Below, one piece after another: positions 1 through 24,668 of a stretch of 64,000 nucleotides of DNA. The translations under genes and the position numbers were made by a program. Source of the stretch: Vibrio gallaecicus (lineage in GTDB: Bacteria; Pseudomonadota; Gammaproteobacteria; Enterobacterales; Vibrionaceae); NCBI RefSeq assembly GCF_024347495.1, contig NZ_AP025490.1:2232001-2296000 (forward strand), given 5' to 3'. Position 1 is the stretch's first letter, and the number at the start of each line of letters is the position of its first letter. The notes beneath the pieces were generated by a model that saw only the letters and a program-made list of their open reading frames with translations, was not told the origin of the DNA and searched no databases.

Positions 1-400
1 CCATATTAACACGAAAAGCAGCGATAACTTGCTAACACAATACCCTCCTAACTTGTCACCTTCATTAGAAGTCGCATGACAATGCTTAATCCTATCAAAA
101 GTATTTTCTGATAACGAGAAAATGAGACTTGGCGTTTTTAGAGGGAATTTTTTCGCTATTAGAGCGCTATTCTTATTAGATACACAGTCTTGAGGAGGAG
201 TGCTTTGATTATCTGACGCTTGTTTAATAATTGCTTTTCTTTTGCTTGCTCTAGCGTGATATCAATGAGATTAGCGATCCTTATCTTGAAACGATTCTGG
301 TTCTCTCTACCTCAAATAGAGGGTAGATTCACCAATATCCACTTGTTTAGTTACCTCTCTTGTTGATAGCTTTAACCTTACCCATTATTCATTCTATCTT
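1..400 (-). pseudogene. Decayed reverse-strand reading frame, possible helix-turn-helix protein remnant
   Basis: Reading the minus strand from about 400 down to 1, one frame gives a helix-turn-helix-like stretch (REVTKQVDIGESTLY) and then, after three stop codons, an open run of roughly 75 residues that continues past the window start. There is no intact start-to-stop gene. The N-terminal stretch resembles DNA-binding segments of transposase or regulator proteins. It could also be chance coding in AT-rich DNA, so the call is weak. Confidence 0.25.
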
Positions 401-707
401 ATCAAATTTTCAAGACCAAACCTTCCAATTTGTATCGTAAGTCTCCTGTTCCATTTACTTATTTATCAATCATATAAAACTATATATCGACTTTTTTGTT
501 GAGTCTGCCTGCATGGCTTGAGCCCATTGATGATTACCAGATATGCTGCCTGGTGTAATTCAATGAATTAACAAAAACAGTGACTAATTGTAAGTGTAAG
601 GAAATAGTGAAAGACCATATCGCGGTCAAGGTTTAACCATAAAAATTCATGGCTTGCCGATCGCTCGGCATCAATAAATATAAATTACAAAAAATATAGG
701 AATACTC
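401..707. other. Gene-free leader of the lipoprotein gene
   Basis: No gene is visible here. The stretch is AT-rich, with TATAAAA- and TATATA-like runs around 475-490 that could be promoter elements for the following gene. A small inverted repeat, GCCGA and TCGGC, lies near 656-669 about 40 bases before the start codon. No clear terminator, RNA gene or transposon end was found. Confidence 0.3.
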
Positions 708-3332
708 ATGACAACATCTTGGCTATATCAACATAAAAAAACGCTTTTAGCACCTGCAATTACCGCTGCTCTTTTAAGTGGCTGTGGTGGCAGTGACTCA
801 GAGCCCAAATCAACAACGTTTTCCGTCACTGCAATTGATGGATACCTACATAACGCAGAAGTTTTGGTAGATACCAATCAAGACAATACCTGCGATAAAA
901 CATTGGGCATGACTAATGAGCAAGGTAAATTAGATGTTGATACCGTTTATCAAAATAAACGAATTTGCGTTACAGCAAAAGCCGGTGAAGCCATAGACTT
1001 AACGCGCGGCGTAGTTGAAAAAGAGTTTATTCTTAAAGCCCCCGCAGGATCGAAAGTCGTTACCCCTTTCACTAATCTCGTCGTTGATATATTGACCATC
1101 AATGATAGGTTAACCGCAGAAGAAGTAAAAAAGGATTTACTTGCAGCCATTCAAGATAGTGGCATAGACGTTGATGAAACAACAGCATTTGGTGATTACC
1201 TCGCCTCTGCGCAATCCTTAACGCCAGAACAGCAAGTTAAAAGTAAAAAACTCGAAATTATCGGCGAAGCATTAGTTGATGCTCAAGGTAAGTCAAACTA
1301 CGCTGCTGCAACGCAATTAAACCTCGTGAAAGCAATTGCCGAACAAATTAAAGACATTAATAAATTGGTAGATCTTCAAGATATCCAGCCTACAGTAAAA
1401 GAGGATGGCACCCTAGTGCCTGCAATTAATCATCGACCTAAATTTATTGGAAATGATTTAGAACCTTACGAAGCATCGATTGTTGATGGAGAAGAGATGC
1501 TACAAATTGATCGAAGTGTCGAACTCAAATTCACAGATTCAGATGCTAACAAGCTTACGTTTAAAATCAAATCACTAACAGGTGACCAACCTCATGTGAC
1601 GATCTCTGACGAAGGTATTATTTCGGGTATTCAACAAAATAAAGCGGGAAATTATCTTTTTCATATTTATGTCATCGATAGTAATGGCGCAAAATCTCGT
1701 CCTGTCCCATTTAAATTGACACTAATAACCTCAAATAAAGCGCCAGTCCTAAACCCTACACAAGCAGAAGAATTTATATTTGACATCAAAGCGTTAGAAT
1801 TTGTCAAAGGCATTAATTTTCCTGAGCAAGTTTTTTCACTTAACGACATATTTACCGATCCAGATGGAGATGTGATTACTTATACAGTGACTACCGCACC
1901 AAAAGCGAATGGCTTGAATGTATCAATTAACCAACAGCAACTCCAAATTAGTGGTACGCCTATTCAATCAGGTAATCTTGACATCACTATTACTGCTACG
2001 GATATCGAACACAGTAAAGGGAGTCAAATTACTATTCCACTGACGGTTAAAGACCAAGGTATCACGGTCAATCATCCGTTAGAAGGGACTGTATTTTATC
2101 AAATTCATAACAGCAGCGATTCCGGAGAGCATCCGAACTTACGCTGCCGATCGGTTAAATTTGAAAATAAGACAATTTATTTTTCATTAGAGAGCGAAAC
2201 TCCGTTTACCTGTGAAGAGCCTATAGAAAATGTTGGTACTTATACGATTGATGGCGAGACGTTGACGGCAACCACACTCGATAATGGAAATACGGTTGTT
2301 GATGATTTTACTATCCTCCATCCCATCGATGAAGGAAATGGGTACCTTGTACATGAAGAACCAAAAGGTCGAACGAATGAAAGTACGTGGGTAAGACACT
2401 TCTTTACAAATTTCAAACATGTTGATGAGCATCTCGACGCTAGTGGTGCGGCGTACCAGTACTTAGTGTGGAAGGAGAATGAATACATTTCCGGCGATGC
2501 TAGTGTTAAACTCAATGGATATCCAGGCTTAAATCAAGAACCGAGTGTATCGATTACTTTTAGTAAATCGTTAAGCTGTGAAGAGATAAACAAGATTTAT
2601 AGCAATATATATATTTCTGACGAAACTGGTTACACCGTGAAATCACAAGGTTGCAATATCAATGAGTTAAAGCAACCAACTGTAGTGTTTTCTGATTTAA
2701 CTGGTATACGAGATGGAAAAATCATTGACGGGCATTACTATGCGGTTACGACTGATTTAGCCCCTATTTACCGAGATAAAATGGAACCTCTGATGTTGCG
2801 TATTAAATATCAAGGTGTCTATAAATGTGACCAATTTGATTCAAATTTTGACGAACAAGATCAACCTGAACAGTTATCACGAATCAGTGATTTTCAAAAC
2901 GCTGTTAATATGTGTAAAAAGAGTTCTAATGCAGATCCATTCGAGAATTTAGAGTCTACCTTAAAAACATGGACTCAAGATGTCAGCGCATTTAAATTAA
3001 TTGGTCACGATGAAACGTATTCTTTTACACAAACAGAAAAAGGAAAGCATGTCACGCTTACGATCAACAATGGAGAAGGTGGTGATGAGAAAATCAATGC
3101 TAATTGGAAATATGAAGAAGGTCGCTTAGTTATATTTAATGTGCAAGGAGGAAGTGGTCAGCTCACTGAAATAATTGAAACCTTAGCGTTAACAAACGTT
3201 GCTCCAATTGACCAAAGCCTTTCAGTGTTGAGCATATTACAAGATCCAGCTTACGATGTTCTCAATTTAGGAAATCATATATCTCATGGCGCAATACAAT
3301 CTAAAATATACGTGTTTAAAGTGGAAAAATGA
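708..3332 (+). CDS. Large lipoprotein with cadherin-like repeats, function unknown
   Basis: This is an 874-residue predicted lipoprotein. The N-terminus has a positively charged start, a hydrophobic stretch and a lipobox ending in Cys26 (LLSGC), followed by GGSDSEP, so it should be lipidated and exported; whether it stays in the inner membrane or moves to the outer membrane or surface cannot be told. Residues about 240-340 and 345-450 look like two beta-sandwich Ig/cadherin-like domains, the second with the DPDGD calcium-type motif. The remainder is unfamiliar and cysteine-containing. AGGA lies eight bases before the ATG. It stands alone and is probably cargo of the adjoining transposon. No enzymatic motif was seen. 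Confidence 0.8.
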   Translation: MTTSWLYQHKKTLLAPAITAALLSGCGGSDSEPKSTTFSVTAIDGYLHNAEVLVDTNQDNTCDKTLGMTNEQGKLDVDTVYQNKRICVTAKAGEAIDLTRGVVEKEFILKAPAGSKVVTPFTNLVVDILTINDRLTAEEVKKDLLAAIQDSGIDVDETTAFGDYLASAQSLTPEQQVKSKKLEIIGEALVDAQGKSNYAAATQLNLVKAIAEQIKDINKLVDLQDIQPTVKEDGTLVPAINHRPKFIGNDLEPYEASIVDGEEMLQIDRSVELKFTDSDANKLTFKIKSLTGDQPHVTISDEGIISGIQQNKAGNYLFHIYVIDSNGAKSRPVPFKLTLITSNKAPVLNPTQAEEFIFDIKALEFVKGINFPEQVFSLNDIFTDPDGDVITYTVTTAPKANGLNVSINQQQLQISGTPIQSGNLDITITATDIEHSKGSQITIPLTVKDQGITVNHPLEGTVFYQIHNSSDSGEHPNLRCRSVKFENKTIYFSLESETPFTCEEPIENVGTYTIDGETLTATTLDNGNTVVDDFTILHPIDEGNGYLVHEEPKGRTNESTWVRHFFTNFKHVDEHLDASGAAYQYLVWKENEYISGDASVKLNGYPGLNQEPSVSITFSKSLSCEEINKIYSNIYISDETGYTVKSQGCNINELKQPTVVFSDLTGIRDGKIIDGHYYAVTTDLAPIYRDKMEPLMLRIKYQGVYKCDQFDSNFDEQDQPEQLSRISDFQNAVNMCKKSSNADPFENLESTLKTWTQDVSAFKLIGHDETYSFTQTEKGKHVTLTINNGEGGDEKINANWKYEEGRLVIFNVQGGSGQLTEIIETLALTNVAPIDQSLSVLSILQDPAYDVLNLGNHISHGAIQSKIYVFKVEK

Positions 3333-4041
3333 GCTATTTACTGAGTAATTAAACGGTCACTTTAGCTGCTACCGGCGTTTAGCTTTTAAATCCGCTTGAT
3401 CTCGAGTGAGTTTTTGCATTTTAATTTCCTTTTCGGCTATTCAGTGTCGAGATTGGGTTTCAGGTAAAGCCCTTTGTGTTGCGCCACTGAGGGTTTTCTT
3501 GCTTCTGCCGCAAAGTTTACGATTTAAAGTGATATGCGGAATTTTCGATACTATATCTAATCCATATTTTGCTAATTTAGCAAAACCACTGGTACATATT
3601 TGTCCAAAACCTTATGGCATGAATTCTTACACGTGGTACTTTCTAGCTCGAAAGTACCCCATTATTGGTTTCGCCAAGAAGCCTACGTTATCGGTCGAGT
3701 GAATTTTGACCAAATATAAATAATCTGCCCCCCAAAACGCACAAAGTACGAAAAATGGGGGTCATTGTGCTGTTCTTGACTAAAATGAACACGCTGACTT
3801 TTGCCCTGTAAATCGTTATAAACTTTTAAGACGGCATGGAATCATATTGGTTGATTAAGCGTCTAAAATCTTCGCTAAGAGCGTTTGACGTGCTTTAAGA
3901 GCTCTTCTGATAGCAAAGTCACGGATTTTACATATTTACGAGTAATGACTAACGATTTGTTAGAGGCTTGATACCATTTTTCTCTTTGGCTGATGTCCAG
4001 TTTAACTGGTGAAGGTCACTCACTCTATACTTAGGATTTTT
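3333..4041. other. Non-coding accessory stretch with decayed fragments and a hairpin
   Basis: No convincing gene is present. The minus strand carries short coding-like scraps: about 3360-3420 encodes a 16-residue open run after a plausible ribosome site, and about 3720-3990 gives interrupted frames with several stops, as expected of a decayed gene. A perfect 8-bp hairpin, GGTACTTT and AAAGTACC, occupies 3635-3642 and 3651-3658. A plus-strand open frame of 98 codons (3406-3702) has no ribosome site and unnatural composition and is not called as a gene. Confidence 0.4.
3567..3612 (+). repeat. Dispersed direct repeat, copy A
   Basis: About 45 bases that align imperfectly with 4751-4796: shared blocks are TTGCTAATTTAG, CACTGG and TTTGTCCAAA in the same order and spacing. 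The two copies bracket the repeat-protein gene at 4042-4617. The origin is unknown; they do not look like integron attC sites or known insertion-sequence ends. Confidence 0.4.
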
Positions 4042-4617
4042 ATGAAAAATATTTTTTTGGTGTTCTTGTGCTTAATAGTGTCTTTTAACTGTTTTTCTGA
4101 GGTAAAAACAGAGCATTACGACAGTGGTGCTCTTATGAGAGAAATTAACCACAAGAACGGTAAGCAAGAAGGCATTACTAAGCTGTACTACGAGAGTGGT
4201 GCTCTTAAGGTTGAAGCTAATTTCAAGAACGGCAAGCAAGAAGGCATTACTAAGATGTACAACGAGAGTGGTGCTCTTAAGGATGAATATAACTACAAGG
4301 ACGGCAAGCTAGAAGGCATTACTAAGATTTACTACGAGAGTGGGGCTCTTTATAGTGAGATTAACTATAAGAACGGCAAGCAAGAAGGCATTACTAAGAT
4401 GTACAACGAGAGTGGTGCTCTTTATAGTGAGATGTACTACAAGAACGACCAGCTAGAAGGCACTACTAAGAAGTATTACGAGAGTGGGGCTATTAAGAGT
4501 GAGATTAACTACAAGAACGGCACACTTCACGGAGCTTTTAAGGTGTATTCACCTGATGGGATATTAACCAGCCGATCAAATTTTATAGATGGCAAAGGGG
4601 TTATAGGTGGGCAGTAA
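4042..4617 (+). CDS. Secreted MORN/YwqK-type repeat protein
   Basis: A 191-residue protein made almost wholly of 23-residue repeats of the form Y-ESGAL-x-E-x-x-KNGK-x-EG-x-TK, the pattern of MORN_2/YwqK-family proteins, some of which are antitoxins or immunity-like proteins. Six full units run from codon 26 (4117-4530), followed by a diverged seventh. The ATG at 4042 is chosen over the in-frame ATG at 4009 because it gives a clean signal peptide (MKNIFLVFLCLIVSFNCFS). The repeats are nearly identical at DNA level, so the copy number may vary between strains. No toxin gene is visible beside it. It is likely transposon cargo. The family call is firm; the function is not. Confidence 0.75.
   Translation: MKNIFLVFLCLIVSFNCFSEVKTEHYDSGALMREINHKNGKQEGITKLYYESGALKVEANFKNGKQEGITKMYNESGALKDEYNYKDGKLEGITKIYYESGALYSEINYKNGKQEGITKMYNESGALYSEMYYKNDQLEGTTKKYYESGAIKSEINYKNGTLHGAFKVYSPDGILTSRSNFIDGKGVIGGQ
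4117..4530 (+). repeat. Six tandem 69-bp coding repeats
   Basis: Six consecutive 69-bp units encode the 23-residue repeats of the YwqK-type protein. Units share long identical blocks such as GAGAGTGG, CAAGAACGGCAAGC and GAAGGCATTACTAAG. Such near-identical coding repeats can expand or contract by slippage or recombination. Confidence 0.85.
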
Positions 4618-4750
4618 AGATAGGTGGTCGATTTACCGTAACGTCGCTTAATACACACCTAAACATAAACCAATTTTTTTGCTAGTACGATTATACTCAT
4701 CGCATTAGCTCTTCATAACTATTAGCTTTACCATACTTTTAGTTATCCAT

Positions 4751-4796
4751 GAATTGCTAATTTAGGGAAGTCACTGGCAAACTTTTGTCCAAATAC
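4751..4796 (+). repeat. Dispersed direct repeat, copy B
   Basis: Partner of the element at 3567-3612, sharing TTGCTAATTTAG, CACTGG and TTTGTCCAAA. It lies just downstream of the helicase gene's stop codon, in the gap between that gene and the convergent repeat-protein gene. Nothing else is recognisable between 4618 and 4829. Confidence 0.4.
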
Positions 4797-4829
4797 GAGT
4801 TTCAAAGTCGTACTTGGACCGTAAACGAA

Positions 4830-6209
4830 TCAGTTCAAAAATGCCGATAAAATCCTTTGTCTAAAGTTTCCAAAGTAAAGATCTTCATTCAGTAAAGAAG
4901 GTAGCTCTACAGTAGAGCCCCTTCTATTTTCCCAAACGATCTCATTCTCTACATCGATAGGGATCAACCCGTTCCGCTCACTCCGCTGGCACTCTGACTT
5001 TGAAGCGGGTTTCTCGTAAACTGCGAAATTGGTATCATGCTTAACCAATATGCAATCTTCTGGAATATCCTGCTCAATTCTTTCAGCAAATCCAATCAAA
5101 CTTTCTTCGGCAAAGGTATACAACCACGCTTCTTGGTTGGGTGAATCATTGATTCTTAAAATTCGCCCAAGTACTTGCCTGAAGTACAGTTCCGTTTTTA
5201 CCGAACTCATATGGCAGCAAACCTGCAGCCTTGGAATATCCGTTCCTTCACTTATCATCCCAACACTGACTATCCACTGAACATTCGAATGACGAAACGA
5301 CTCAATTTCATTTAACGGATTATCATGGTGATAAGTCACTATGCACGCTGATTGATTAAAGTGTTCAGCAAGTCGCTTTTGAATGTCTTTAGCGTGCTTG
5401 ATAGAAGATGCGACCACTAAGCCTCCAGCTCTTGGGGACTCTTGCCTTATCTGCGCTAGCTTTTGGCAACCACTATTCAATATGTAATTCATAGCGTCTT
5501 CGTTATGAATTACACTTTGATAAGAGACATCGGATTGTTTAAGGCAATCAAGAATTGAAGCGAAGTGTTGATTGTCACTGCCAGCCTTAACGCTCAAATG
5601 TTCATTATCTATTAAAACGATTTTAGGGCGGCGGCATACTTCGTCTTCAACAGCCTGTTGCAAGCCGTATTGGTAATCGCAAACAACCTTACCATCAGGG
5701 TCTGAATACTCAGCCATGACAATCGGTAGTCGATCAGAACGCCAAGGGGTGCCCGACAGCGCCAGAGTATAACGAGCAAAGCCTTGGATCTTAGAGACAA
5801 TTTCTAGCCCCCATGAGTTTGACCGCCCCTCATCATCAAACGAACAATGGTGGATCTCATCAAATACGACTAAAACTCGATATTTACTGACGGTGTTCCA
5901 AAAGCTTTCATCCAAAAAACGGATTGATTGGTAGGTGTAAGATCCTCCAAGAGAACCCAAACCTCCATTAAAGGAACATTCGAGCTTCCATGAAAAGGTC
6001 TTTTGCATCCCTTCAGCAACAGTCAGAGAGGGCGAGAAGCACAGCACTAAGTCAATCATGCCTTGTTTAAATAACCGACTCGCGACCTCGGCGGCCATAA
6101 CGGTTTTACCAGCTCCAGGGGTCGCTTGGCAGAAGAAGTGTGAATGCTTGTTTGAAGTGAGTTTCTCGATAGCTTGAGATGCGCACTCGGCTTGCCATGC
6201 TCTTAACAT
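4830..6209 (-). CDS. SF2 DEAD/DEAH-type helicase
   Basis: A 459-residue superfamily 2 helicase. Visible motifs in order: Walker A ATPGAGKT (residues 29-36), DEIHH (motif II), SGTP with a following W (motif III), a second RecA-like domain with VVASSIKHA (motif IV region), SEGTDIP (motif V) and RQVLGRILR (motif VI). It resembles stand-alone COG1061-type DNA helicases of mobile islands; there is no attached nuclease domain. Its ATG overlaps the stop of the upstream 181-residue gene (ATGTTAA), which implies translational coupling, so the two proteins probably work together. It occupies the place where tniQ/tnsD is expected after tnsC. Possible roles are phage defence cargo or a transposition accessory; neither is shown by the sequence. 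Confidence 0.85.
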   Translation of the reverse strand: MLRAWQAECASQAIEKLTSNKHSHFFCQATPGAGKTVMAAEVASRLFKQGMIDLVLCFSPSLTVAEGMQKTFSWKLECSFNGGLGSLGGSYTYQSIRFLDESFWNTVSKYRVLVVFDEIHHCSFDDEGRSNSWGLEIVSKIQGFARYTLALSGTPWRSDRLPIVMAEYSDPDGKVVCDYQYGLQQAVEDEVCRRPKIVLIDNEHLSVKAGSDNQHFASILDCLKQSDVSYQSVIHNEDAMNYILNSGCQKLAQIRQESPRAGGLVVASSIKHAKDIQKRLAEHFNQSACIVTYHHDNPLNEIESFRHSNVQWIVSVGMISEGTDIPRLQVCCHMSSVKTELYFRQVLGRILRINDSPNQEAWLYTFAEESLIGFAERIEQDIPEDCILVKHDTNFAVYEKPASKSECQRSERNGLIPIDVENEIVWENRRGSTVELPSLLNEDLYFGNFRQRILSAFLN

Positions 6210-6748
6210 TGATGAGCCTTACTTTGCGTGACTTGCATCCAGTTGGTTAGTGCATTAATTCTGCCTAATAGCTTAGCTGAGCGTTCTCTTGCTGCATTGA
6301 ATAGCGGCTGCATATCTTGCTTGTTGTTTGGGAAACGCGTTAACAACGATTGGTATTCCTCAATCTCACCTAAAGTAATCGCCAGCTCACCTTCATGCTG
6401 CTTCTTCTCTTGCTCTAATGCATTTAGAGAGCACTCTGGAGTTTGAACAGCTATTGAATCGACCTTAGCTTTCCTATTTCGAGCCGATCTAGGCTCAATT
6501 GTGAGCGCTTTGAATTCGTTAGTTTGATGGTAGCGTTTGTCTCTGCGAGTCCCAATAACAGAAAGCCAACCTTTCTCCTCAAGTGATAGAAGTTGCTTAT
6601 AAACATACTTTCGAGCGTCGTCCTTACTCGGGAAGGTCGCACAACTGGTCAGCAAAGCATCCCTAGCTTCTGTGACGGAGAAATTATCCATCCCTTTTTC
6701 AATCAATAGGTTAAACATGTGAGGGTTAATTCTGGTTACTTTCTTCAT
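6203..6748 (-). CDS. Small protein with winged-helix-like N-terminus, partner of helicase
   Basis: A 181-residue protein that I do not recognise. Residues about 20-75 look like a winged-helix DNA-binding fold: a helix-rich run beginning NFSVTEARDALL, then a YVYKQLLSLEEKGWLSVIG helix-wing pattern typical of HTH domains that read 'ends in a recognition helix plus wing'. The C-terminal third (about 105-175) is a charged, probably coiled-coil helix pair. It is the first gene of a two-gene operon with the helicase and overlaps it by seven bases. Its start lies about 20 bases from a pair of palindromic operators shared with the divergent XRE gene, so it is very likely repressed by that regulator. 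Its function is unknown. Confidence 0.7.
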   Translation of the reverse strand: MKKVTRINPHMFNLLIEKGMDNFSVTEARDALLTSCATFPSKDDARKYVYKQLLSLEEKGWLSVIGTRRDKRYHQTNEFKALTIEPRSARNRKAKVDSIAVQTPECSLNALEQEKKQHEGELAITLGEIEEYQSLLTRFPNNKQDMQPLFNAARERSAKLLGRINALTNWMQVTQSKAHQC

Positions 6749-6769
6749 GTGACTCTTACAGGCAATAAA

Positions 6770-6788
6770 AACTTAGGATTGCTAAGTA
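6770..6788. promoter_or_regulatory. Operator 1 for the XRE regulator (predicted)
   Basis: Inverted repeat ACTTAG-N5-CTAAGT (6771-6776 and 6782-6787) in the gap between the divergent XRE gene and the helicase operon. The same half-sites with the same 5-bp spacer recur at 6804-6822, about three helical turns away. This is what autoregulated XRE repressors usually bind; binding itself is inference. Confidence 0.7.
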
Positions 6789-6803
6789 TACAAAAATCAG
6801 TAA

Positions 6804-6822
6804 AACTTAGACAATCTAAGTT
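6804..6822. promoter_or_regulatory. Operator 2 for the XRE regulator (predicted)
   Basis: Inverted repeat AACTTAG-N5-CTAAGTT, a 7-bp-arm version of operator 1, about 28 bases before the GTG start of the XRE gene. Centre-to-centre distance to operator 1 is 34 bp, so two dimers would sit on the same face of the helix and could control both divergent promoters. Confidence 0.7.
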
Positions 6823-6849
6823 ATCTAAAGGTTGAAAAGAAATGTGTAA

Positions 6850-7155
6850 GTGCAAAAAGACAACCCCATCCCAGCGAGGCTCAAAGCTGCGCGTAAAAAA
6901 GCCAAGATCACCCAAAAAGATTTAGGGGTGAAAATTGGTATGGAGCAGAGTTCTGCTAGCGGTCGTATGAATCATTACGAGAAAGGCAGGCATGTACCTG
7001 ATATTGGTACGCTTGAGCGCATGGCTGAAGAGTTAGACGTGCCGCTAAACTACTTTTTCTGTAGGAGCGAATTAAGCGCTGAGTTAGCGTGCGCCATTGA
7101 TAAGATGAGTGATGAAGAGAAGGTGGCGTTGCTGGAAAAACTAGCGTCTCAATGA
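6850..7155 (+). CDS. XRE-family transcriptional regulator
   Basis: A 101-residue cytoplasmic HTH_3 repressor-like protein. The helix-turn-helix spans about residues 8-65 (RLKAARKKAKITQKDLGVKI, then the recognition helix and NHYEKGRHVPD), with a short C-terminal helix probably for dimerisation. The start is GTG at 6850; an ATG at 6843 is out of frame. It is divergent from the 181-residue/helicase operon across two matching palindromes and convergent with tnsC, whose stop is 23 bases away. XRE regulators are known to control expression in CRISPR-associated Tn7-like elements; here the direct target appears to be the helicase pair and itself. Confidence 0.88.
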   Translation: MQKDNPIPARLKAARKKAKITQKDLGVKIGMEQSSASGRMNHYEKGRHVPDIGTLERMAEELDVPLNYFFCRSELSAELACAIDKMSDEEKVALLEKLASQ

Positions 7156-7177
7156 TTTGGTTATCAACATCGCAGCT

Positions 7178-8242
7178 TTATACTTTTAGGCTACTTGTAC
7201 TTAACAACGTACTCAGCGGTAATGCATCTGTAAATCGGGGGGCGAGAATCCTATCCTCTGCTGTAATCGCTCTCGTATTGTACGCTGAACCTTTATCTAT
7301 TTGCTCTAACATCACCTGTTCTAATGAACATTCAAATGGGTTCTCCAAATAGGGGAATTTCAGTATGAATGTCCTAGATAGTACTTCTTTGTTCAACGTA
7401 CTTTTGTTCTCTTTAAAGCTCATTATCATGGCATCTTTCAAAAAGTGCTTGAGCCTTCGACACTCTCCACGACACATTGAAAATAAGGGATATAGAATTT
7501 CATTCTTAGTCAGTATTGGTGTTTGCTCGTAGCCCATTCTAGAGGCTAGTCCAGCCACAAATCTAGCAAAGTGTTTCTTTTGTTTAGCATCAATACTGTA
7601 TTGAGTGTTGGTATTTTTCGCGTCACTTTCAACCTGAAGCAATTTAAAATAATTGATTTCTCTGCGCCAACTCAATCGAGAGTTCCACTGCGGCTCCTTC
7701 GCGATAACATCAGCATAAGGCATTCCAACCAATACAAAGGATACACCGGCTTCCTCACTGATATATTTAAATGTATTAGCGATGGTTTGTCTTTCATCCG
7801 CAGTCGAAAACTCCACAAGCTCTTGAATCTCATTAACAATAATGAGCTCGACAGATTTACGTTTTAACTGAGTTACCACTCCTTCAGCAAGTGCAATTTC
7901 ATTCCTCTTTCGTACTGAACGTCCTCCTGATTTTGAGTCCAGATCAACGAGAAATTGAGTCAAAGTATTTTGTTCATTTACTCGACTAGGAATTCGGGTA
8001 CTTAGGACTGTTTGCTTGGACCAACTCGTTCCTGTATTGAAGCGTGAAAGGTAGTTATTGATCAAAGCGGTTTTTCCACTTCCCGATTCGCCTGTTAATA
8101 GGAATGACTCAGGTTCACCGCCTAGTAATTGATTAAAGCGAAGTTGGTCAAATATCGAATAGATCTCCGTAATTTCGGGGTACTCAATAAAACAATTATC
8201 GTAGGCTTTCAACTGTTCACACTGCATGGAAGTAACATTCAC
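7178..8242 (-). CDS. tnsC: Tn7-like transposition regulator TnsC (AAA+ ATPase)
   Basis: A 354-residue AAA+ ATPase of the TnsC/TniB family, which in Tn7-like elements polymerises on DNA and links the target-selection protein to the TnsAB transposase. Walker A GESGSGKT is at residues 51-58. The Walker B strand reads LIIVNEIQEL, with Asn137 where Asp is usual and Glu138 kept. A sensor-type strand FVLVGMP and an arginine-rich lid follow. It starts with GTG two bases after the tnsB stop, so it is co-transcribed with tnsA and tnsB. Length fits short TnsC proteins. The normal partner, TniQ/TnsD, is not found next to it. Confidence 0.88.
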   Translation of the reverse strand: MNVTSMQCEQLKAYDNCFIEYPEITEIYSIFDQLRFNQLLGGEPESFLLTGESGSGKTALINNYLSRFNTGTSWSKQTVLSTRIPSRVNEQNTLTQFLVDLDSKSGGRSVRKRNEIALAEGVVTQLKRKSVELIIVNEIQELVEFSTADERQTIANTFKYISEEAGVSFVLVGMPYADVIAKEPQWNSRLSWRREINYFKLLQVESDAKNTNTQYSIDAKQKKHFARFVAGLASRMGYEQTPILTKNEILYPLFSMCRGECRRLKHFLKDAMIMSFKENKSTLNKEVLSRTFILKFPYLENPFECSLEQVMLEQIDKGSAYNTRAITAEDRILAPRFTDALPLSTLLSTSSLKV

Positions 8243-8244
8243 GA

Positions 8245-10122
8245 TTAGTAGCCCTCTATCTCTTCAAGATCATCATCGTCCAATGATAGTTGAGTACTAA
8301 CAACGTTTAATGCTGAATTACTGCTTTCATTTTTTCTAACGATTGAGCTAGGTCCTTCCGTGCCAACATCTCTGTATTTTGCAATCTTAGAAGTGTTCCC
8401 TGTTTTAGGTTGGGTGAGCTTTTTGTTTTTAGAACTACGCATTCTCTCTGCTTCCCCTTCAATAAGAGCTTCCATATAGAGATAGGTATCGGCTAAAGAC
8501 TCTTCATTGACGAGGCTTCGGGTATTCAACCTGCGCACTCTTTGAATTCGCTCATGTTCGAACAACGAAAGTCCATTGGTATACCCACTGTTATCAACCG
8601 CTGGGACTTTTATGTATTTCTTTTCTGATTCAAGAAAAACGTAGATAGCGCTTATGTCCGACGGATCGGTTTTTGTCCTGACGAAGAGTTTCCTTTGTGA
8701 ATTAACCGAATTGTATTTTCGATACTCTATGAGCTCATCCGATTGATAGCGCAAATTGTGCAACCTTATCCCAGCGATCCCTATCGTCCGGTGCCTTAAC
8801 AACCCCAACTCAATACGTAACTCGGCCGCAGCTTGTCCTTGGTAGAAATTTGGAAGCCATTTCGATTCATTCCACTTATGATAAGGAACATTCCTTTCTC
8901 GACTATCAGAGTCCATGTGATAGCGGTCGATAACCCATTTATGTATTAACTCCATAAATACAGAAACTCTAACGGCAGACTCTTTTTTAGGATCGTAATC
9001 TTTAAGCTGAGTGGGGTTTGTGAATGTTTTTCCAGGCAGAGCGTTAACCAACCCCTTGTTTAGTTGATCAAATAACTTTTCTATACCGGTCTTTCTCCAC
9101 GGTTTGGCAGCTTGGCTGTATCGAATATCCGACACCAAAGGTCTCAAAGAGTCCTCTAGGCTATCACTCCAAAACTCGGCACCATTATCAACGACCAGAT
9201 AGTCTATTTTTCCATGACATGGCCAATCATTTGTTATTGAGGGATATTTTTCGCTTACCCAGCGCTTGTCTAGCAAAGTACTCAATAGTGCTTTTCTGAC
9301 GGAATCAAAACTAGGCTCTCTAAAGTTAACGCTAAAGCCGACGATACACTTACTAAACCTGTCATAGAGCATGGTTAGATATGGGCGACCTAATGGAATA
9401 TCCAATTCATCATCAATCAGTATGACAGGGACTGGAGTGTGGTCAATTTCAACGTACTCCATCGGTTTCGTCGCCTCTATTTGCTGGCCTACAGAACGAA
9501 ACTCTCTATCTGCATATCGCTTTCCATACCTTCCCACTGCAACATCATAGGGTGGTAAACTATTCACTCTGTCATAAAATGCTCTTTGGCTAATTCGCTT
9601 GATTTTGCCTTCGACTATTTCTTGATTGGCTTTAATTACTCGGCTTTTGTAATAGCGGTAAGCCTCTGCAACGCTTAAACGCTCTTTAGTCAGGTATTTT
9701 TTTTCAATCGCTTCATCAATGAGCGACTGTGAATCTGTATGAACGGTTCTATTTCCTTTTTGGGCGTGTTTAGGAATGAGCGAAAGAACGGCTCTCCCTG
9801 ATTCAAAATACATTTTCTTCCAGCCGGCAAGAACTCGCCAACTCGGTGGAGATAGCCCTAGCTCTTGTTCAACCTGATTTAAAATCGGTACAAGATTTTT
9901 TTCTGTCCACCCACCTTTTAGACGTTTTTCAGTAAATTGAATGACTTTAAGACGTCGTAATACTTCTTGCTGAGTTTTTACAGTATAGGTATCAATGGAA
10001 GGGAGATACGATTTATCTTCTTCAAATAAATCACTCGGTATTTGGGTTACTAATTCCGCTTCGTTGGCAGAAGCTTCCATTTCATCAATGAAACCAAAAA
10101 CGTCATCAAAATCTGACGTCAT
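8245..10122 (-). CDS. tnsB: Tn7-like transposase TnsB
   Basis: A DDE integrase-superfamily transposase of about 625 residues that binds the transposon ends and joins the 3' ends to target DNA. Catalytic residues are visible as Asp227 (EIDHTP), Asp312 (VVDNGAEF) and Glu348 (KTGIEKLFDQL), giving a DD35E spacing. Upstream lie helix-turn-helix DNA-binding segments; downstream is the Mu-B-like C-terminal beta barrel (LRLHNLRYQSDEL) and an acidic tail suited to contact TnsC. I prefer the ATG at 10122, two bases after the tnsA stop (TAG-GT-ATG), over an upstream GTG that overlaps tnsA. The reading frame is intact. Confidence 0.92.
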   Translation of the reverse strand: MTSDFDDVFGFIDEMEASANEAELVTQIPSDLFEEDKSYLPSIDTYTVKTQQEVLRRLKVIQFTEKRLKGGWTEKNLVPILNQVEQELGLSPPSWRVLAGWKKMYFESGRAVLSLIPKHAQKGNRTVHTDSQSLIDEAIEKKYLTKERLSVAEAYRYYKSRVIKANQEIVEGKIKRISQRAFYDRVNSLPPYDVAVGRYGKRYADREFRSVGQQIEATKPMEYVEIDHTPVPVILIDDELDIPLGRPYLTMLYDRFSKCIVGFSVNFREPSFDSVRKALLSTLLDKRWVSEKYPSITNDWPCHGKIDYLVVDNGAEFWSDSLEDSLRPLVSDIRYSQAAKPWRKTGIEKLFDQLNKGLVNALPGKTFTNPTQLKDYDPKKESAVRVSVFMELIHKWVIDRYHMDSDSRERNVPYHKWNESKWLPNFYQGQAAAELRIELGLLRHRTIGIAGIRLHNLRYQSDELIEYRKYNSVNSQRKLFVRTKTDPSDISAIYVFLESEKKYIKVPAVDNSGYTNGLSLFEHERIQRVRRLNTRSLVNEESLADTYLYMEALIEGEAERMRSSKNKKLTQPKTGNTSKIAKYRDVGTEGPSSIVRKNESSNSALNVVSTQLSLDDDDLEEIEGY

Positions 10123-10124
10123 AC

Positions 10125-10757
10125 CTAACACCAAACGTAGCTATTCAAACCAAAATCAGAGCTTCTAATATCAGTCTTAACTCTCCCTGACGATAGCCAA
10201 CAGAGTGTTGATATCAGAGTTTCATGCTCAGACAGTCCTAAGTGGTCGGAGATTTCGCGTAATTGTACTTTCTGTCTACGTTGTATAAATCCGAGAACAG
10301 ACTTTTGCGCTTTAGTGATGGTATGCAAACCAGAGTAACGATGTAACAGCTTTAAGTTACTAAATATTGGGTCAATACGAATTTGTTTCTCTGTCACTAA
10401 AACAAGGCGTTTTCCTTGTTCTTCTAGTGCTACTCGCTGTTTTTCAGCAAATCGGAGCCTGAAGTCTGGTTTTAAAATCTGGCTTGAGTGCTTAATCTCA
10501 ATAAGAGTAGATTGGTCGTTATGATTATCGGCTAAAAAATCTGGCGTATAACGACACTTGCGACCATTAAAGTAGTAATAAAAACCGTGTGGTTGAGATA
10601 TGTACCCTTTAACATCAGGGTTATATTCGAGATGGAAACAAAAATCGAACTCTAAAACAGAGAGAGTGCGAACAACAGCATCATTTTTCAAGCTCATGAA
10701 CTTGCAGATGTTGTGAACGTGAGAGGATTTTTTGGTTTGGTCGAACATAGTGCGCAT
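10125..10757 (-). CDS. tnsA: Tn7-like endonuclease TnsA
   Basis: A protein of about 210 residues that in Tn7 cuts the 5' strands at the transposon ends so that the element moves by cut-and-paste. The restriction-endonuclease-like core is visible: an EFDFCFHLEYNPDV helix, the RYTPDFL motif with the metal-binding Asp, and LIEIKHSS with the E-x-K pair. The C-terminal third is a helix-turn-helix-like domain (REISDHLGLSEHE). It is the gene nearest the right end, with tnsB following at once. The start could be ATG 10757 or GTG 10760; neither has a strong ribosome site. A 24-bp palindrome abuts the start. Confidence 0.9.
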   Translation of the reverse strand: MRTMFDQTKKSSHVHNICKFMSLKNDAVVRTLSVLEFDFCFHLEYNPDVKGYISQPHGFYYYFNGRKCRYTPDFLADNHNDQSTLIEIKHSSQILKPDFRLRFAEKQRVALEEQGKRLVLVTEKQIRIDPIFSNLKLLHRYSGLHTITKAQKSVLGFIQRRQKVQLREISDHLGLSEHETLISTLCWLSSGRVKTDIRSSDFGLNSYVWC

Positions 10758-10760
10758 CAC

Positions 10761-10784
10761 TTTTGTTGTAAACCTACAACAAAA
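10761..10784. promoter_or_regulatory. Perfect 10-bp-arm palindrome at tnsA start
   Basis: TTTTGTTGTA (10761-10770), AACC, TACAACAAAA (10775-10784). It directly abuts the tnsA start codon region and overlaps the predicted -10 box. It is not followed by a T-run on either strand, so it does not look like a terminator; an operator for repression of tnsABC is more likely. Its half-site is unlike that of the XRE operators at 6770-6822, so a different protein may bind it. Confidence 0.55.
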
Positions 10785-10811
10785 AATAGACTATGCTGAC
10801 TTATAGTGCAA
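10783..10811 (-). promoter_or_regulatory. Predicted tnsABC promoter inside the right end
   Basis: On the minus strand, TTGCAC (10806-10811), a 17-bp spacer and TATTTT (10783-10788). The -35 box lies inside the innermost end repeat (10794-10814), so TnsB bound to the end could repress its own operon, as described for Tn7. Box matches are moderate. Confidence 0.45.
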
Positions 10812-10856
10812 ATTTGCTAACTTCTTTGCAATTTATGCTAACTTAGTTTGCAAACA
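10794..10856 (-). repeat. Transposon right end: three contiguous 21-bp TnsB-site repeats
   Basis: Three head-to-tail 21-bp units at 10794-10814, 10815-10835 and 10836-10856. Each on the plus strand begins TGCT(A/G)ACTT and has TGCAA at the same offset. The outermost ends in ACA (TGT read into the element). Closely packed repeats are typical of the right end of Tn7; the left end normally has spaced ones. The bases after it, TCAAA (10857-10861), are the candidate target duplication. Confidence 0.85.
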
Positions 10857-10862
10857 TCAAAT

Positions 10863-10970
10863 GGGTGGAAGCCCCAGCCACATCCCGGCACACACGTCGC
10901 CCGCTGCGGCTGCTCCCTTCCAGGCCTGACCGAGTTCACGAGTTAGTGTTGCGGGAGGACCAGGGCCTCC
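10863..10970 (-). ncRNA. ffs: 4.5S RNA, signal recognition particle RNA
   Basis: On the minus strand the sequence matches bacterial 4.5S RNA: the conserved apical part GGTCAGGCCTGGAAGGGAGC with its GGAA tetraloop, followed by AGCAGCCGCAG and GTGTGTGCCGGGATG, and complementary ends (GGAGGCCCTGG with CTGGGGCTTCC). Mature length is about 108 bases, close to the 114 of E. coli. The RNA scaffolds Ffh in targeting membrane proteins. The neighbours atl, ybaY and tesB are also ffs neighbours in E. coli. The Tn7-like right end begins six bases past its 3' end, so its native terminator has been displaced. Confidence 0.95.
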
Positions 10971-11012
10971 ATAGGTTCTGTTTCAATAAGGCTTGCCTTA
11001 GTGAGTGACTGG

Positions 11013-13271: not shown

Positions 13272-14009
13272 TTATGTATTCTGTTCGTCTTCAGCTCTTA
13301 AAATGTAATCTGTCATCCACGCCGTGCCAAGCAGGCACAACCAAACAACGAAAACGGGATTGGGTACTTCAATACTTGGGGTAACGACTAATGCAGCAAA
13401 ACCCACTGTAGGTAATGTCCAACATAACAGTTTATTCCATCTGAAGGTTTTTAATTTTGTAAGTGCTTCCATTGAGGCCATAATTCCGGTGACACTTAAT
13501 GCTATCAATGCCGCATAGGGTAAATCAGCTATCCATAAAGGAAGTATCAAACCTAATGACCACCAGCTGTGTTTACTAATAGGTTTCAAATGATTAGCTG
13601 CCCACCAAATAACCATGATAGCGAGAGTTTGTACTATCGTCACCCATGGTGTGCCTTCAAGCTTTCCTGCCGATTGGGTCACCATAATCCCCACCTGTAA
13701 TGTCGCAACGATAAGCCCTGATATTATAACGACCGACAGGCTGCTTCTTTTTGAAAACACCACCATTAGCAATGGAAACAACACCCATACACTGACTGAG
13801 AGTGTGATAGGTTGCAGCGGAAGCGTGAGCCCATAAGCAGTCATAGAAGCCAATAGCGCTAAACCAGCGATACCGCCTTGTGGCAGTATCCAAAGCGCAG
13901 GAATAACCATAGCAAGCACTGGAATGTCTCCATCACTTAAACTGATTGCTCTGGCACACACTACTGCTAATAATGTAGTGATTAGGAATTGAAATGTGGT
14001 AAATACCAT
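13272..14009 (-). CDS. Conserved integral membrane protein, unknown function
   Basis: A 245-residue, very hydrophobic protein with roughly seven or eight predicted membrane segments and almost no soluble domain apart from an acidic C-terminal tail (LRAEDEQNT). It has no motif that identifies a transporter or enzyme family. It is divergent from atl, with about 50 bases between the two start codons, so their promoters must overlap or lie within each other's gene. Conserved chromosomal position beside atl-ybaY-tesB suggests a core Vibrionaceae gene. Confidence 0.7.
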   Translation of the reverse strand: MVFTTFQFLITTLLAVVCARAISLSDGDIPVLAMVIPALWILPQGGIAGLALLASMTAYGLTLPLQPITLSVSVWVLFPLLMVVFSKRSSLSVVIISGLIVATLQVGIMVTQSAGKLEGTPWVTIVQTLAIMVIWWAANHLKPISKHSWWSLGLILPLWIADLPYAALIALSVTGIMASMEALTKLKTFRWNKLLCWTLPTVGFAALVVTPSIEVPNPVFVVWLCLLGTAWMTDYILRAEDEQNT

Positions 14010-14060
14010 AGCTCTCTCCTTCTACCGATCCGTGGTAACTTTGAACTAGGACTTTTTAGT

Positions 14061-14363
14061 ATGGACCAATTTCTATCTCAAATCTTTGCTGTAATTCACC
14101 AAATTCCACAAGGAAAAGTAACAACTTATGGAGATGTCGCACGTTTTGCAGGTTTTCCTGGCTACGCTCGGCATGTAGGTAAAGCATTGGGTAACCTTCC
14201 AAAAGGCAGTAAGCTTCCTTGGTTTAGAGTGATTAATAGTAAAGGTGAATTGTCACTGGTCGGTGAAAGTTTCGAACGCCAGAAATCGGCACTAGAAAGA
14301 GAAGGTATTGAAGTCAGTGAAAAAGGTAAAGTCAAACTCCGAATATACAAATGGCAGCCATAA
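14061..14363 (+). CDS. atl: Alkyltransferase-like protein Atl
   Basis: A 100-residue member of the O6-methylguanine-DNA methyltransferase C-terminal family (YbaZ/eAtl). The active-site motif PCHRV is replaced by PWFRV, with Trp54 in place of the alkyl-accepting Cys, so it cannot transfer alkyl groups; family members bind O6-alkylguanine lesions, flip the base and hand them to nucleotide excision repair. The helix-turn-helix (KVTTYGDVARFAG) and arginine finger (YARHVGKAL) are intact. The ATG at 14061 starts the family's usual N-terminus; an in-frame ATG at 13989 would overlap the divergent gene. The neighbour ybaY is shared with E. coli. Confidence 0.92.
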   Translation: MDQFLSQIFAVIHQIPQGKVTTYGDVARFAGFPGYARHVGKALGNLPKGSKLPWFRVINSKGELSLVGESFERQKSALEREGIEVSEKGKVKLRIYKWQP

Positions 14364-14415
14364 AGCTGCCAAATGACAATGTTCATACTTCGTATGGATA
14401 ACTTGATTGTGTGGC

Positions 14416-14844
14416 TTATCTCACTCCAACTAAACGCAAGTCAACATAGTCCGTTTTATATGTGTCGGTAATGACAGGGGCAACGGTATCTGTAGTGAAA
14501 CGTAAGCGGTTATTCACTTCTATCGTTGCTCTTACGCTGTAGCGGTGATTTTCTTTAATCTTTTTGCTATCAAAGCCCAGATCAAATTTAAATGGTACCT
14601 GCTCCCCGTTTGTCATAAAACGATGTTTTGCTATAACAATTGAAGGTGCGTCAGCTAAGGAGATATCTTCAAGGGTCACCGTCACTAATGCATCTTCAGG
14701 TAATGCAATTCGTTCTCTATAAGTCACCGTACCTGAAACCGTTTTAATGCTACTGCCTTCCAATTCTGGTTTGGGTGCAGACTGGCAACCTGATAGTAAC
14801 CCCAATGTAACTAGCGAAATCACAATAAGCAGTGCCTTTTTCAT
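14416..14844 (-). CDS. ybaY: YbaY family lipoprotein
   Basis: A 142-residue lipoprotein with signal peptide and lipobox (LLSGC, Cys20). The mature part is a single beta-sandwich domain of the YbaY/type III secretion pilotin-like family (VSGTVTYRERIALPEDALVTV, then the DISLADAPS and FKFDLGFD segments). The precise role is not established. It is divergent from tesB, as ybaY is from tesB in E. coli, which supports the gene symbol. Confidence 0.9.
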   Translation of the reverse strand: MKKALLIVISLVTLGLLSGCQSAPKPELEGSSIKTVSGTVTYRERIALPEDALVTVTLEDISLADAPSIVIAKHRFMTNGEQVPFKFDLGFDSKKIKENHRYSVRATIEVNNRLRFTTDTVAPVITDTYKTDYVDLRLVGVR

Positions 14845-15005
14845 ATTTTCTCTCTTTAATTAAACCTGTCAAATGCGACATTGACTCAGTATATGAAAGC
14901 TTTCGTTTTCTGTCTTGAATCCCTATGATTTATTGACAGTTATTTGACTGAGCTAGTAATTTAACACATTATTCTGACGAGTATTTTTTAAGAAGGACGC
15001 TGGCA

Positions 15006-15869
15006 ATGAGTCAACCATTAAAAGAATTATTAAACTTACTCCAGCTAGAAAAACTGGAAGAAGGGCTCTTCCGTGGTCAAAGTGAGAATCTCGGATTACC
15101 TCAAGTGTATGGTGGTCAAGTATTAGGACAAGCCCTATCTGCAGCTCGATATACTGTAGAAGAAGATAGAAGTGTGCATTCATTTCATAGCTACTTTCTC
15201 TTCCCTGGGGATCCTGAAAAGCCAATTATTTATGATGTAGAAAACCTGAGAGACGGCAGAAGCTTTAGTACTCGACGTGTGAAAGCGATTCAAAATGGCC
15301 GACCTATTTTCTATTTAACCGCGTCTTATCACGGTGATGCTCCTGGTTTTGAACACCAAAACACCATGCCGGAGATTCCAGGCCCTGAAAACTTTGCTTC
15401 AGAAACAGAGTTAGCCAGCCATATTGCTGAGTTTTTACCAGAGAAATTGCGAAAGACTTTTTGCGGTGAAAAACCCATTGAAATGCGCCCAGTCACCGTC
15501 GTTAACCCATTAAAGCCGAAAAAGACTGAGCCAAAACAATATTTATGGGTTCGTGCAAATGGTGAGATGCCAGATAACCAACTTATCCATCAGTACCTTA
15601 TGGCTTACGCTTCGGATTGGGGATTTTTAGTAACCGCATTACACCCCCATGAAGTATCTTTAATGACGCCCAACTTCCAAGTTGCAACCATTGATCACTC
15701 TATATGGTTCCATCGCCCATTTAAGATGGATGAATGGCTTCTTTACGTCATCGAAAGCCCAACAGCAAGTAACACTCGCGGGCTTGTACGCGGCGAAATA
15801 TTCAACCAAAAAGGTGAGTTGGTCGCAACAGCCGTTCAAGAAGGCGTAATGCGTTTCACAAATAAATAA
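15006..15869 (+). CDS. tesB: Acyl-CoA thioesterase II
   Basis: A 287-residue TesB protein that hydrolyses medium- and long-chain acyl-CoA to fatty acid and CoA in the cytoplasm. Two hotdog domains are visible: the N-terminal one with [15 protein letters not shown] and [13 protein letters not shown], and the C-terminal one with the catalytic Asp-Gln-Thr region ([12 protein letters not shown], ending [10 protein letters not shown]). Full length for the family (286 in E. coli). The ribosome site AAGAAGGA lies nine bases before the ATG. A strong terminator follows at 15914. Confidence 0.95.
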
Positions 15870-15913
15870 CGCAATCTGAATCATCCATATGTTTATGATG
15901 GTTTCAAAATAAT

Positions 15914-15946
15914 TAAAGCTCTGGAAACACCAGAGCTTTAATTTTT
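15914..15946 (+). terminator. Terminator after tesB
   Basis: Perfect 11-bp stem TAAAGCTCTGG and CCAGAGCTTTA with a 5-base loop, followed by ATTTTT. Confidence 0.85.
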
Positions 15947-16087
15947 ACGCTGTTACTTACTGCTTTACCATTAACTTGAACCCTTCAATATTTCCCTTCT
16001 ACCATAGCTAGCTATTTATTCTTGTTCATCCCAATAGCGGCAGATAATTTTAGGGTGCTCAAAGTAAAGCTATTTTTGTACTTTTAG

Positions 16088-16750
16088 CTACTCTTGCACT
16101 TTTAGCTTCAATTCATTTCCAGCATCTCTGAGTAAATTAATTGGAGATAAAACAACACCTTTGACAGCCCCTTGAGTCGCTTCTTCAGCTAAATTTTTCG
16201 ACTTATCAATTACTTGATCCGCTTTCACCAGTATCGGCGGGATTTCTGCACGTAACAATTCTGATTCAGCAATAACGGCCGGTACCGTATTGTGACGATA
16301 GCCTTCACTTTCCAACAATAATGGCGGCACAACTTGCGTCCGATACCCTTTTAGCTCAGTTAGCATAGGTGGGATTATATCCACTCGAACGCGTTTAACT
16401 TCTGAAAGCACTGCTGGTACAGAGGTTGAGCGTATGCTCTCTACTTCATCTAATATCAACGGTATTTTTTTATCCACAGAGCTGACAGTTTGGTTCACTT
16501 GCTCAACGGTAAGTCGAACTTGCTCAACGGCTTCTAATGCTTGAGGCAGCAATTCCTCTGCAGTTTTCGCAACAACTAACCACTCTCCGACTTGTAGACC
16601 ATTTGTAAGGCTTTCCAAATCAGTGATGGCTTGTGGATACGTATCAATGACGTCACCCACTTTACTCGTAAACCCATGAATGGAGTAGCCGAGATAAAAA
16701 ATCGATACAGCTAAAAGTAGCTGAACACCAGTAGTGAACTTTGCAAACAT
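16088..16750 (-). CDS. Membrane-anchored coiled-coil protein, unknown function
   Basis: A protein of about 220 residues with one N-terminal membrane helix (FTTGVQLLLAVSIFYLGYSI) and a long periplasmic helical part. From about residue 100 on it has recurring 11-14-residue units of the form V-PxLL-E-x-x-x-xR (for example IPPMLTELKGYR, VPPLLLESEGYR, VPAVIAESELLR, IPPILVKADQ), a helical-repeat rod. ATG 16750 is chosen because GGAG lies six bases upstream; a GTG four codons earlier has none. It stands alone and I do not recognise the family. A role as a membrane-tethered scaffold is a guess. Confidence 0.65.
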   Translation of the reverse strand: MFAKFTTGVQLLLAVSIFYLGYSIHGFTSKVGDVIDTYPQAITDLESLTNGLQVGEWLVVAKTAEELLPQALEAVEQVRLTVEQVNQTVSSVDKKIPLILDEVESIRSTSVPAVLSEVKRVRVDIIPPMLTELKGYRTQVVPPLLLESEGYRHNTVPAVIAESELLRAEIPPILVKADQVIDKSKNLAEEATQGAVKGVVLSPINLLRDAGNELKLKVQE

Positions 16751-16817
16751 AAGTCGCTCCACAATAGATTTAATGGACTTTAGATTAGAAATGAAACCGT
16801 TCCATCAACAGTTTTGT

Positions 16818-17276
16818 TTAACAGATAGGCAGAGCGGTTGTATATTTCAATGGCTCCATGGCAAAAGTAGAAGTGACGTTCGAAATCCCATCAACGCTAT
16901 TCACTAAACGCTTATAGAATTCATCGAAGCATTTCATATCTCTCACCTGCACCTTCATCATGTAATCATATTCGCCGGCCATGCGATAAAATTCCATTAC
17001 CTCCGGAAACTCTGAGACAGTACTGACAAATCGACCATACCATTCATGAGAATGATCACTGGTTTTTATTAGGACAAAAGCGGTAAAAGAAAGGTCCAGC
17101 TTTTCTGGGTTCAACAAAGCGACTCGCTTTTCTATCACCCCTTCTTCTTCTAAACGCTTTAACCTTTTCCAGCACGGTGTAGTCGTTAAATTTACAGCTT
17201 CAGCCATATCACTTAAAGATAATGTACTGTCTTGCTGCAACAACCCCAGTATTTTTTTATCAACCGAATCTAACAT
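16818..17276 (-). CDS. Lrp/AsnC-family regulator, DecR (YbaO)-like
   Basis: A 152-residue Lrp/AsnC transcription factor: N-terminal helix-turn-helix ([21 protein letters not shown], then [17 protein letters not shown]) and C-terminal RAM effector-binding domain (about 65-145). It is divergent from a PLP enzyme of cysteine metabolism across about 150 bases. In E. coli the Lrp-type regulator DecR (YbaO) maps in the same tesB-ybaY region and activates cysteine detoxification genes, so DecR-like control of the neighbour in response to cysteine is a reasonable inference, not shown here. Confidence 0.85.
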
Positions 17277-17429
17277 TTCCTTTAAAACCCAATATTAGTA
17301 GAAAAGTTTTCTATAAAACTGACTAATCATAGTAAATATAGCAAAGCTTTTCTCCTGAAAAATAGATAAATTATTACCATACTAATTAATAATAACGAAT
17401 AGACAGCTTAGCTGCTCATGGAGTTTCCT

Positions 17430-18494: not shown

Positions 18495-18516
18495 TTCTAG
18501 CTAAGTGAAACATAAT

Positions 18517-23652: not shown

Positions 23653-23737
<85 letters not shown>

Positions 23738-23839
23738 TATTTCTTCTTACCTCTATTTGAGTTAAGAGAACAACCTGATTGATGGGCTTATGGGAAAACA
23801 TCAATTTAGGCTTACTTTGTGAAAAGTAAGACACACCCT

Positions 23840-23924
<85 letters not shown>

Positions 23925-24025
23925 TATTCTTCTTACCTCTATTTGAGTTAAGAGAACAACCTAATTGATGGGCTTATGGGAAAACATCAATTTAGGCTTA
24001 CTTTGTGAAGAGTAAGACACACCCT

Positions 24026-24110
<85 letters not shown>

Positions 24111-24211
24111 TATTCTTCTTACCTCTATTTGAGTTAAGAGAACAACCTGATTGATGGGCTTATGGGAAAACATCAATTTAGGCTTACTTTGTGAAGAGTA
24201 AGACACACCCT

Positions 24212-24296
<85 letters not shown>

Positions 24297-24397: not shown

Positions 24398-24482
<85 letters not shown>

Positions 24483-24583: not shown

Positions 24584-24668
<85 letters not shown>

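Follow-up and report, generated by a model that had tools for sequence, protein, structure and literature searches.

A type I-F3 CRISPR-associated transposon at the ffs gene of Vibrio gallaecicus, with a probably short homing guide

We analysed a 64,000-nucleotide (nt) stretch of the Vibrio gallaecicus genome (assembly GCF_024347495.1, contig NZ_AP025490.1), hereafter the window, which corresponds to C1:2232001-2296000 of a host genome of two contigs and 5.13 Mb. Judged by sequence features, window positions 1-10859 are the right part of a complete type I-F3 (I-F3b-like) transposon, a Tn7-like element associated with clustered regularly interspaced short palindromic repeats (CRISPR). The evidence below makes it very probable that this is an intact-looking I-F3 transposon homed to ffs, the gene for the signal recognition particle (SRP) RNA, by a guide much shorter than the usual 32 nt, and relatives whose guides differ in length suggest that this length determines the landing position. 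The ffs attachment site, the TC protospacer-adjacent motif (PAM) and the diverged repeats of I-F3 elements have already been published (PMC11406308, PMC12774636).

Extent and ends of the transposon

The element and its target site comprise the following features.

Genome C1:2189783-2242859: whole transposon, 53,077 bp, of which 42,218 bp precede the window
Genome 2189783: left end, 42 kb before window position 1
Genome, from 2189788, 2189842 and 2189865, minus strand: left-end TnsB-like sites (matrix scan)
Window 1..10859: right part of the transposon, whose inverted ends are each flanked by AATGG
Window 10792..10854, plus strand: right end with three TnsB-like sites (matrix scan)
Window 10860..10864: target-site duplication AATGG, in perfect copy at both flanks of the element
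Window 10869..10965, minus strand: ffs (RF00169, 70.9 bits), the genome's sole match to the small SRP RNA of Rfam
Window 10908..10927, minus strand: 20-nt protospacer in ffs, with the TC PAM at 10928-10929

The element is bounded by the inverted ends TGATGCTTGCAA and TTGCAAACATCA with AATGG on each outer side, and its right terminus lies at window 10859. A default-setting repeat search of 10700-11000 detected no repeats, and a TnsB-site matrix made from the three right-end repeats, which start at 10792, 10813 and 10834 with 21-bp spacing, was scanned over 124 kb instead. Ranks 1-3 are the three repeats themselves, and ranks 5, 6 and 12 cluster on the other strand at the left end, at a distance of 53 kb, so that each end carries multiple TnsB sites beside a 5-bp duplication, as in I-F3 elements. 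Rank 4, at window 23504, is unrelated to the element ends.

An earlier note, made from the window alone, had placed a Tn7-like element at 4830..10970 with three packed 21-bp repeats at its right end, and had proposed looking before position 1 for the partner left end and a duplication of 5 bp. The element is real, but that interval covers only about 6 kb of its 53 kb; the repeats are present with an inverted partner cluster 53 kb off, and both the left end, 42 kb upstream, and the duplication were found. Comparison with the left end shows the duplication to be AATGG at 10860-10864, not the TCAAA that the note had named as a candidate. The tniQ-cas-CRISPR part, the short guide and the retroelement cargo lay outside what the note could see.

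Transposition genes and the tniQ-cas cluster

The transposition genes and their neighbours lie in the window as follows.

Window 10125..10760, minus strand: tnsA, open frame (PseTnsAB chain, E=7.8e-40)
Window 8245..10134, minus strand: tnsB, open frame (PseTnsAB, E=2.6e-126)
Window 7178..8242, minus strand: tnsC, open frame (30ga_K, E=1.2e-54)
Window 6850..7155, plus strand: Xre-like helix-turn-helix (HTH) regulator gene beside tnsC (HTH_3, E=2e-10)
Window 10763..10782: inverted repeat TTGTTGTA-N4-TACAACAA before tnsA, read from the sequence

All three tns genes, as the earlier note had listed them, are present with open frames, and their products match solved I-F3 proteins; TnsB also matches the Tn6677 chain of V. 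cholerae HE-45 (E=3.4e-62). TnsB Asp231, Asp316 and Glu352 sit in motifs alignable with those of Pse, Tn6677 and V-K TnsB, and TnsA retains a PD...ExK motif. The claim of a full catalytic set in TnsB and TnsA thus stands as far as these residues and motifs are concerned; we take them to be the catalytic ones. The HTH gene is a candidate regulator of the element and a candidate for RtbC of the I-F3b subtype, and the inverted repeat, which recurs in four relatives (L215, L216, L218 and L219), is a possible operator.

Degenerate pieces of tnsA and tnsB lie just outside the left end (genome C1 about 2189240-2189593) and seem to be what is left of an earlier transposon that decayed beside this ffs gene. 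Previous occupants of the site therefore seem to decay, which would fit a reading of the present element, too, as a decayed and immobile remnant; with its core genes open, its ends matching and its duplication perfect, that reading is very improbable on the sequence.

A tniQ-cas8/5-cas7-cas6 cluster and a short CRISPR array, the arrangement typical of I-F3 elements, stand 10-15 kb upstream of the window in segment L004 (C1:2212001-2232000).

L004:4597-5808, plus strand: tniQ (PF06527, E=8.5e-15)
L004:5802-7898, plus strand: cas8/5f (Cas_Csy2, E=2.6e-11)
L004:7905-8954, plus strand: cas7f (Cas_Csy3, E=1.4e-63)
L004:8964-9569, plus strand: cas6f (Cas_Csy4, E=9.3e-21)
L004:9698-9823: CRISPR array, with repeats from 9698 and 9758
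L004:9786-9805: ffs guide, in the last array unit
L004, from 9809: atypical (diverged) hairpin that closes the last array unit

The array consists of a 32-nt spacer between two typical repeats, followed by the last unit with its diverged hairpin. No cas3 or cas1-2 was evident by eye among the listed element open reading frames of at least 90 amino acids (aa), and no profile search was aimed at them. Among the 31 named loci that a search with the Cas6 alignment retrieved, 25 are titled Vibrio, one is Vibrionales, two are Photobacterium, two Neiella and one Veronia.

Two observations concern relatives of the element. Cas6 and TnsB identities disagree (G171, Cas6 95% and TnsB 36%; G042, TnsB 99% and Cas6 88%), a discordance of G171, G078 and G147 versus G042 which suggests that transposase and CRISPR modules have been exchanged. 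In locus L027 (G198), no array follows cas6 and the sequence there resembles, on reading, an insertion element; this array seems to have been lost or displaced.

The guide matches ffs

The last guide of the array matches ffs at 16 of its first 20 bases, and TC precedes the matched stretch in ffs. Three of the mismatches (6, 12 and 18) fall at flip-out positions and one, 13, is additional; a match of at least 16 of 20 bases at any of about 250 placements has a chance of about 1e-4. The earlier note's reading of a Tn7-like element at ffs is supported, and the element is of the CRISPR-associated kind. It might instead be a classical Tn7-like element directed to ffs by a TnsD-type protein, its CRISPR system a bystander. 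Such elements, too, typically carry tnsABC at one end near a conserved gene; yet the only TniQ match in the genome is the 403-aa protein adjoining cas8/5, and the guide matches ffs beside a TC PAM, so this route is scarcely credible. TC is the reported PAM at 96.6% of I-F3 ffs sites (PMC12774636), and a guide of the ffs or rsmJ type with a diverged repeat, here a guide to ffs, is a feature of I-F3b elements (PMC11406308).

When 41 genomes were searched with the flank on the ffs side, 35 gave a match. Besides the element's own site, 24 same-genus ffs loci (L149-L172) were scanned for the end pattern over the 130 nt after the 20-nt target stretch. Eight carry an element end and 16 do not, and the right-end repeat block is therefore absent at these 16, the result that the earlier note would expect of sites that lack the insertion. 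By eye, 11 of the 16 empty loci show a terminator-like hairpin directly after ffs, resembling the hairpin at the left flank of our element; in L149 half of this hairpin is present, and other sequence stands in L164, L165, L168 and L171. Given this hairpin both beside ffs at empty sites and at the left flank here, the insertion seems to have split ffs from its downstream hairpin.

Guide length and insertion distance

The hairpin of the repeat begins 23 nt into the ffs guide, versus 37 for a 32-nt spacer. The guide would be 18 nt long on the assumption of a constant 28-nt repeat. Conservation points to 20 nt, since species largely agree in bases 1-20 and differ in the two that follow, ahead of the hairpin. 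Adjacent typical spacers are 31-34 nt long, almost all of them 32.

At 42 Vibrio ffs junctions, the terminus lies 48-52 nt past guide base 20 (exactly 48 in 29) and the PAM is TC throughout. These junctions came from 50 loci, less one masked stretch (L038), two stretches without ffs (L042 and L057), three not at ffs (L097-L099) and two duplicates (L115 and L116, of L044 and L050). The array chain finder missed some loci whose hairpins had 4-nt loops, CCGC stems or mismatched bases; part of these were inspected directly, and guides were rescored. Pairing 50 guides with 48 junctions gave 41 same-genome pairs and left nine guides without a readable junction, seven junctions without a guide and six arrays without an ffs guide; G324, whose terminus is ambiguous, was excluded, and G288 was counted although its terminus is TA, not TG. 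In 39 of the 41 pairs (35 from Vibrio, four from a different family within the order) the terminus lies 68-72 nt from guide base 1, and in 38 of these 39 the hairpin begins at 23-25 nt, the hairpin of G196 being unscored. The short guide is therefore a trait of the family, not of this copy. The other two pairs, G391 and G285, have long guides with the hairpin at 37-38 nt, and their termini lie at 79 and 83 nt, respectively; in G391 the duplication CTTCG was found at both ends.

Some elements home instead to a different chromosomal gene, at its 3' end (L098 and L099; G021 and G189), and this second target appears to show the same shift with guide length. Specifically, the 32-nt guide of G021 goes with a terminus at 83 nt, with the duplication GCGTT at both ends, and G189, with a hairpin 27 nt into the guide by our own count, goes with 69 nt; its guide agrees with the target at 17 of bases 1-20 and at three of the seven that follow. 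For 32-nt guides the published distance from the PAM is 82 bp (PMC13345079), and insertion usually falls 48-50 bp past the target (PMC11702153), definitions that may differ by the duplication.

The same loci could instead carry ordinary 32-nt ffs guides whose last 12 positions are mismatched, with insertion at the 3' end of ffs reflecting a local preference or the sparing of ffs. That the junctions examined lie at or past the ffs 3' end would agree with this. Against it, a repeat-like hairpin stands at nt 23-25, within the supposed spacer; all 42 Vibrio junctions would fall 36-40 nt after base 32, outside 46-52; and the shift recurs at a different gene, where one 32-nt-guide case serves as comparison. 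We thus consider ordinary guides unlikely and favour a short guide that moves the insertion point.

Several points weigh against a short guide that sets the distance. Only two clear long-guide ffs junctions are known, the duplication of one of them (G285) was looked for and is unconfirmed, and at the second target the duplication is established for G021. Long-guide ffs sites have CC rather than TC as PAM, so the two groups differ beyond guide length. In G324 both ffs-like guides are full-length, and the ambiguous junction puts the terminus, by our reading, either 40 or 52 nt past guide base 32; the value of 40 would contradict the length rule. In addition, the terminus pattern was composed after the sequences had been seen, and the boundary between guide and handle, 18 or 20 nt, is set by conservation. 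The primary paper is said to have found little or no integration. A structure paper of 2026 cites PAM-distal mismatches as abolishing transposition and puts rearrangements near spacer positions 25-32, which these guides would lack.

Searches of 12 genomes of the G391 family and 11 of the G324 family turned up no other long-guide element with an ffs guide. Of fifteen I-F3a-like regions, 11 yielded spacers, 13 in total, all 32 nt long except one of 31; they were unused as a distance control because spacer matching found no homing target.

Proposed mechanism

From the observed ends, duplication, PAM, guide and relation of guide length to insertion position, we propose the following route. The atypical array unit would yield a CRISPR RNA (crRNA) of about 46 nt with a guide of about 20 nt, and the diverged repeat may help to license this short guide. 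Such a crRNA should build a shorter TniQ-Cascade, with four Cas7 subunits by the rule L=6N-4 derived from I-F1 (PMC7296934). TnsC and TnsAB would then insert at the usual ~48-52 bp past the PAM-distal end of the shortened R-loop, placing the element at the ffs 3' end and not about 12 bp further out, and the normal 32-nt spacer of the same array would serve a second pathway, into mobile elements.

I-F1 complexes with shortened spacers assemble and bind DNA, and a truncation of 6 nt already stops interference (PMC7296934); a short homing guide would therefore be safe in a cell with an I-F1 system. The self-targeting guide would stay private to the transposon, being useless to a resident I-F1 nuclease. 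In Vibrio and in certain other genera, many I-F3 transposons that home to ffs are likely to use a natural guide of ~20 nt and a shortened TniQ-Cascade, and would in this way be guarded against the cell's own I-F1 nuclease. The short guide may be regarded as a natural experiment on what sets the ~50-bp ruler and on whether a full 32-bp R-loop is needed for licensing; if 20-nt guides work, guides could be made shorter, the insertion point could be shifted, and guides could be kept private to the transposon.

Cargo and a diversity-generating retroelement

The cargo extends from segment L003, the 20 kb preceding L004, into the window.

L003:12-16859, plus strand: large repeat protein
L003:16956-19959 and L004:475-2190, minus strand: HlyD and ABC-transporter (ATP-binding cassette) genes
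L004:11007-11132, minus strand: first variable repeat (VR1)
L004:11500-13179, minus strand: reverse transcriptase (RT), whose listed start overlaps the template repeat
L004:13070-13195, minus strand: template repeat (TR)
L004:13338-13718, minus strand: Avd
L004:13765-13890, minus strand: second variable repeat (VR2), closing the 1580-aa protein encoded at 13765-18507
Window 708..3332, plus strand: 874-aa predicted surface protein (He_PIG, E=1e-06)
Window 4009..4617, plus strand: MORN-repeat protein (MORN_2, E=2.9e-32)
Window 4830..6209, minus strand: RadD-like helicase (ResIII, E=1.9e-12; RadD model E=2.7e-16, far under the cut-off)
Window 6203..6748, minus strand: 181-aa protein without a family match, overlapping the helicase gene

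The helicase and its partner gene (4830-6748), which adjoin the HTH gene, look like cargo rather than transposition genes. Between the array and tnsC lies a diversity-generating retroelement with an RT, Avd, one TR and two VRs, both of which lie at the ends of Lcl_C-domain proteins. The differences between TR and VR fall at template adenines in 20 of 20 and 23 of 24 cases, as is characteristic of such retroelements. An RT match at E<=1e-20 occurs in nine of 227 Vibrio-genus genomes, our own included; in nine stretches of 7-20 kb from the other eight, tblastn found no match to the transposon, cas, Avd or variable-repeat genes of the element. A search of protein collections returned many related RTs elsewhere, the nearest among the matches listed at 62% identity. 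The terms 'diversity-generating' and 'DGR' are absent from the main text of a cargo survey (PMC8649781). A transposon-borne retroelement of this kind shows how a protein-diversification module could travel. Elsewhere in the window, six equal-scoring tRNA genes are regularly spaced at ~186 bp (23653-24665).

Comparison with known systems

The element adds one more member to a well-studied family, at a site already on record. The paper on the retroelement of Vibrio sp. RC586 reportedly predates the description of CRISPR-guided transposition. By that paper's description, the RC586 retroelement likewise lies near Tn7-type genes (PMC3521204). The passages of the literature searched hold no mention of a short ffs guide, which may stand in Petassi 2020, Klompe 2022 or Park 2023.

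I-F3b elements at ffs, such as AsCAST of A. salmonicida and the SRP-RNA elements of Vibrio, share with ours tnsABC, tniQ-cas8/5-cas7-cas6, the atypical last repeat, the ffs target, the TC PAM and the 5-bp duplication (PMC11406308, PMC12774636, PMC6360697); their cargo is unlike that of our element, and their guide length is not described in the parts of the literature consulted. Among solved structures, the proteins of Pse TnsABC (30jv/30ga), from another source organism, are nearest in sequence to TnsA, TnsB and TnsC of our element. Tn6677 of V. cholerae HE-45 (VchCAST, I-F3a) has the same gene set as our element and differs from it in its standard 32-nt guides and in insertion 82 bp from the PAM (PMC13345079).

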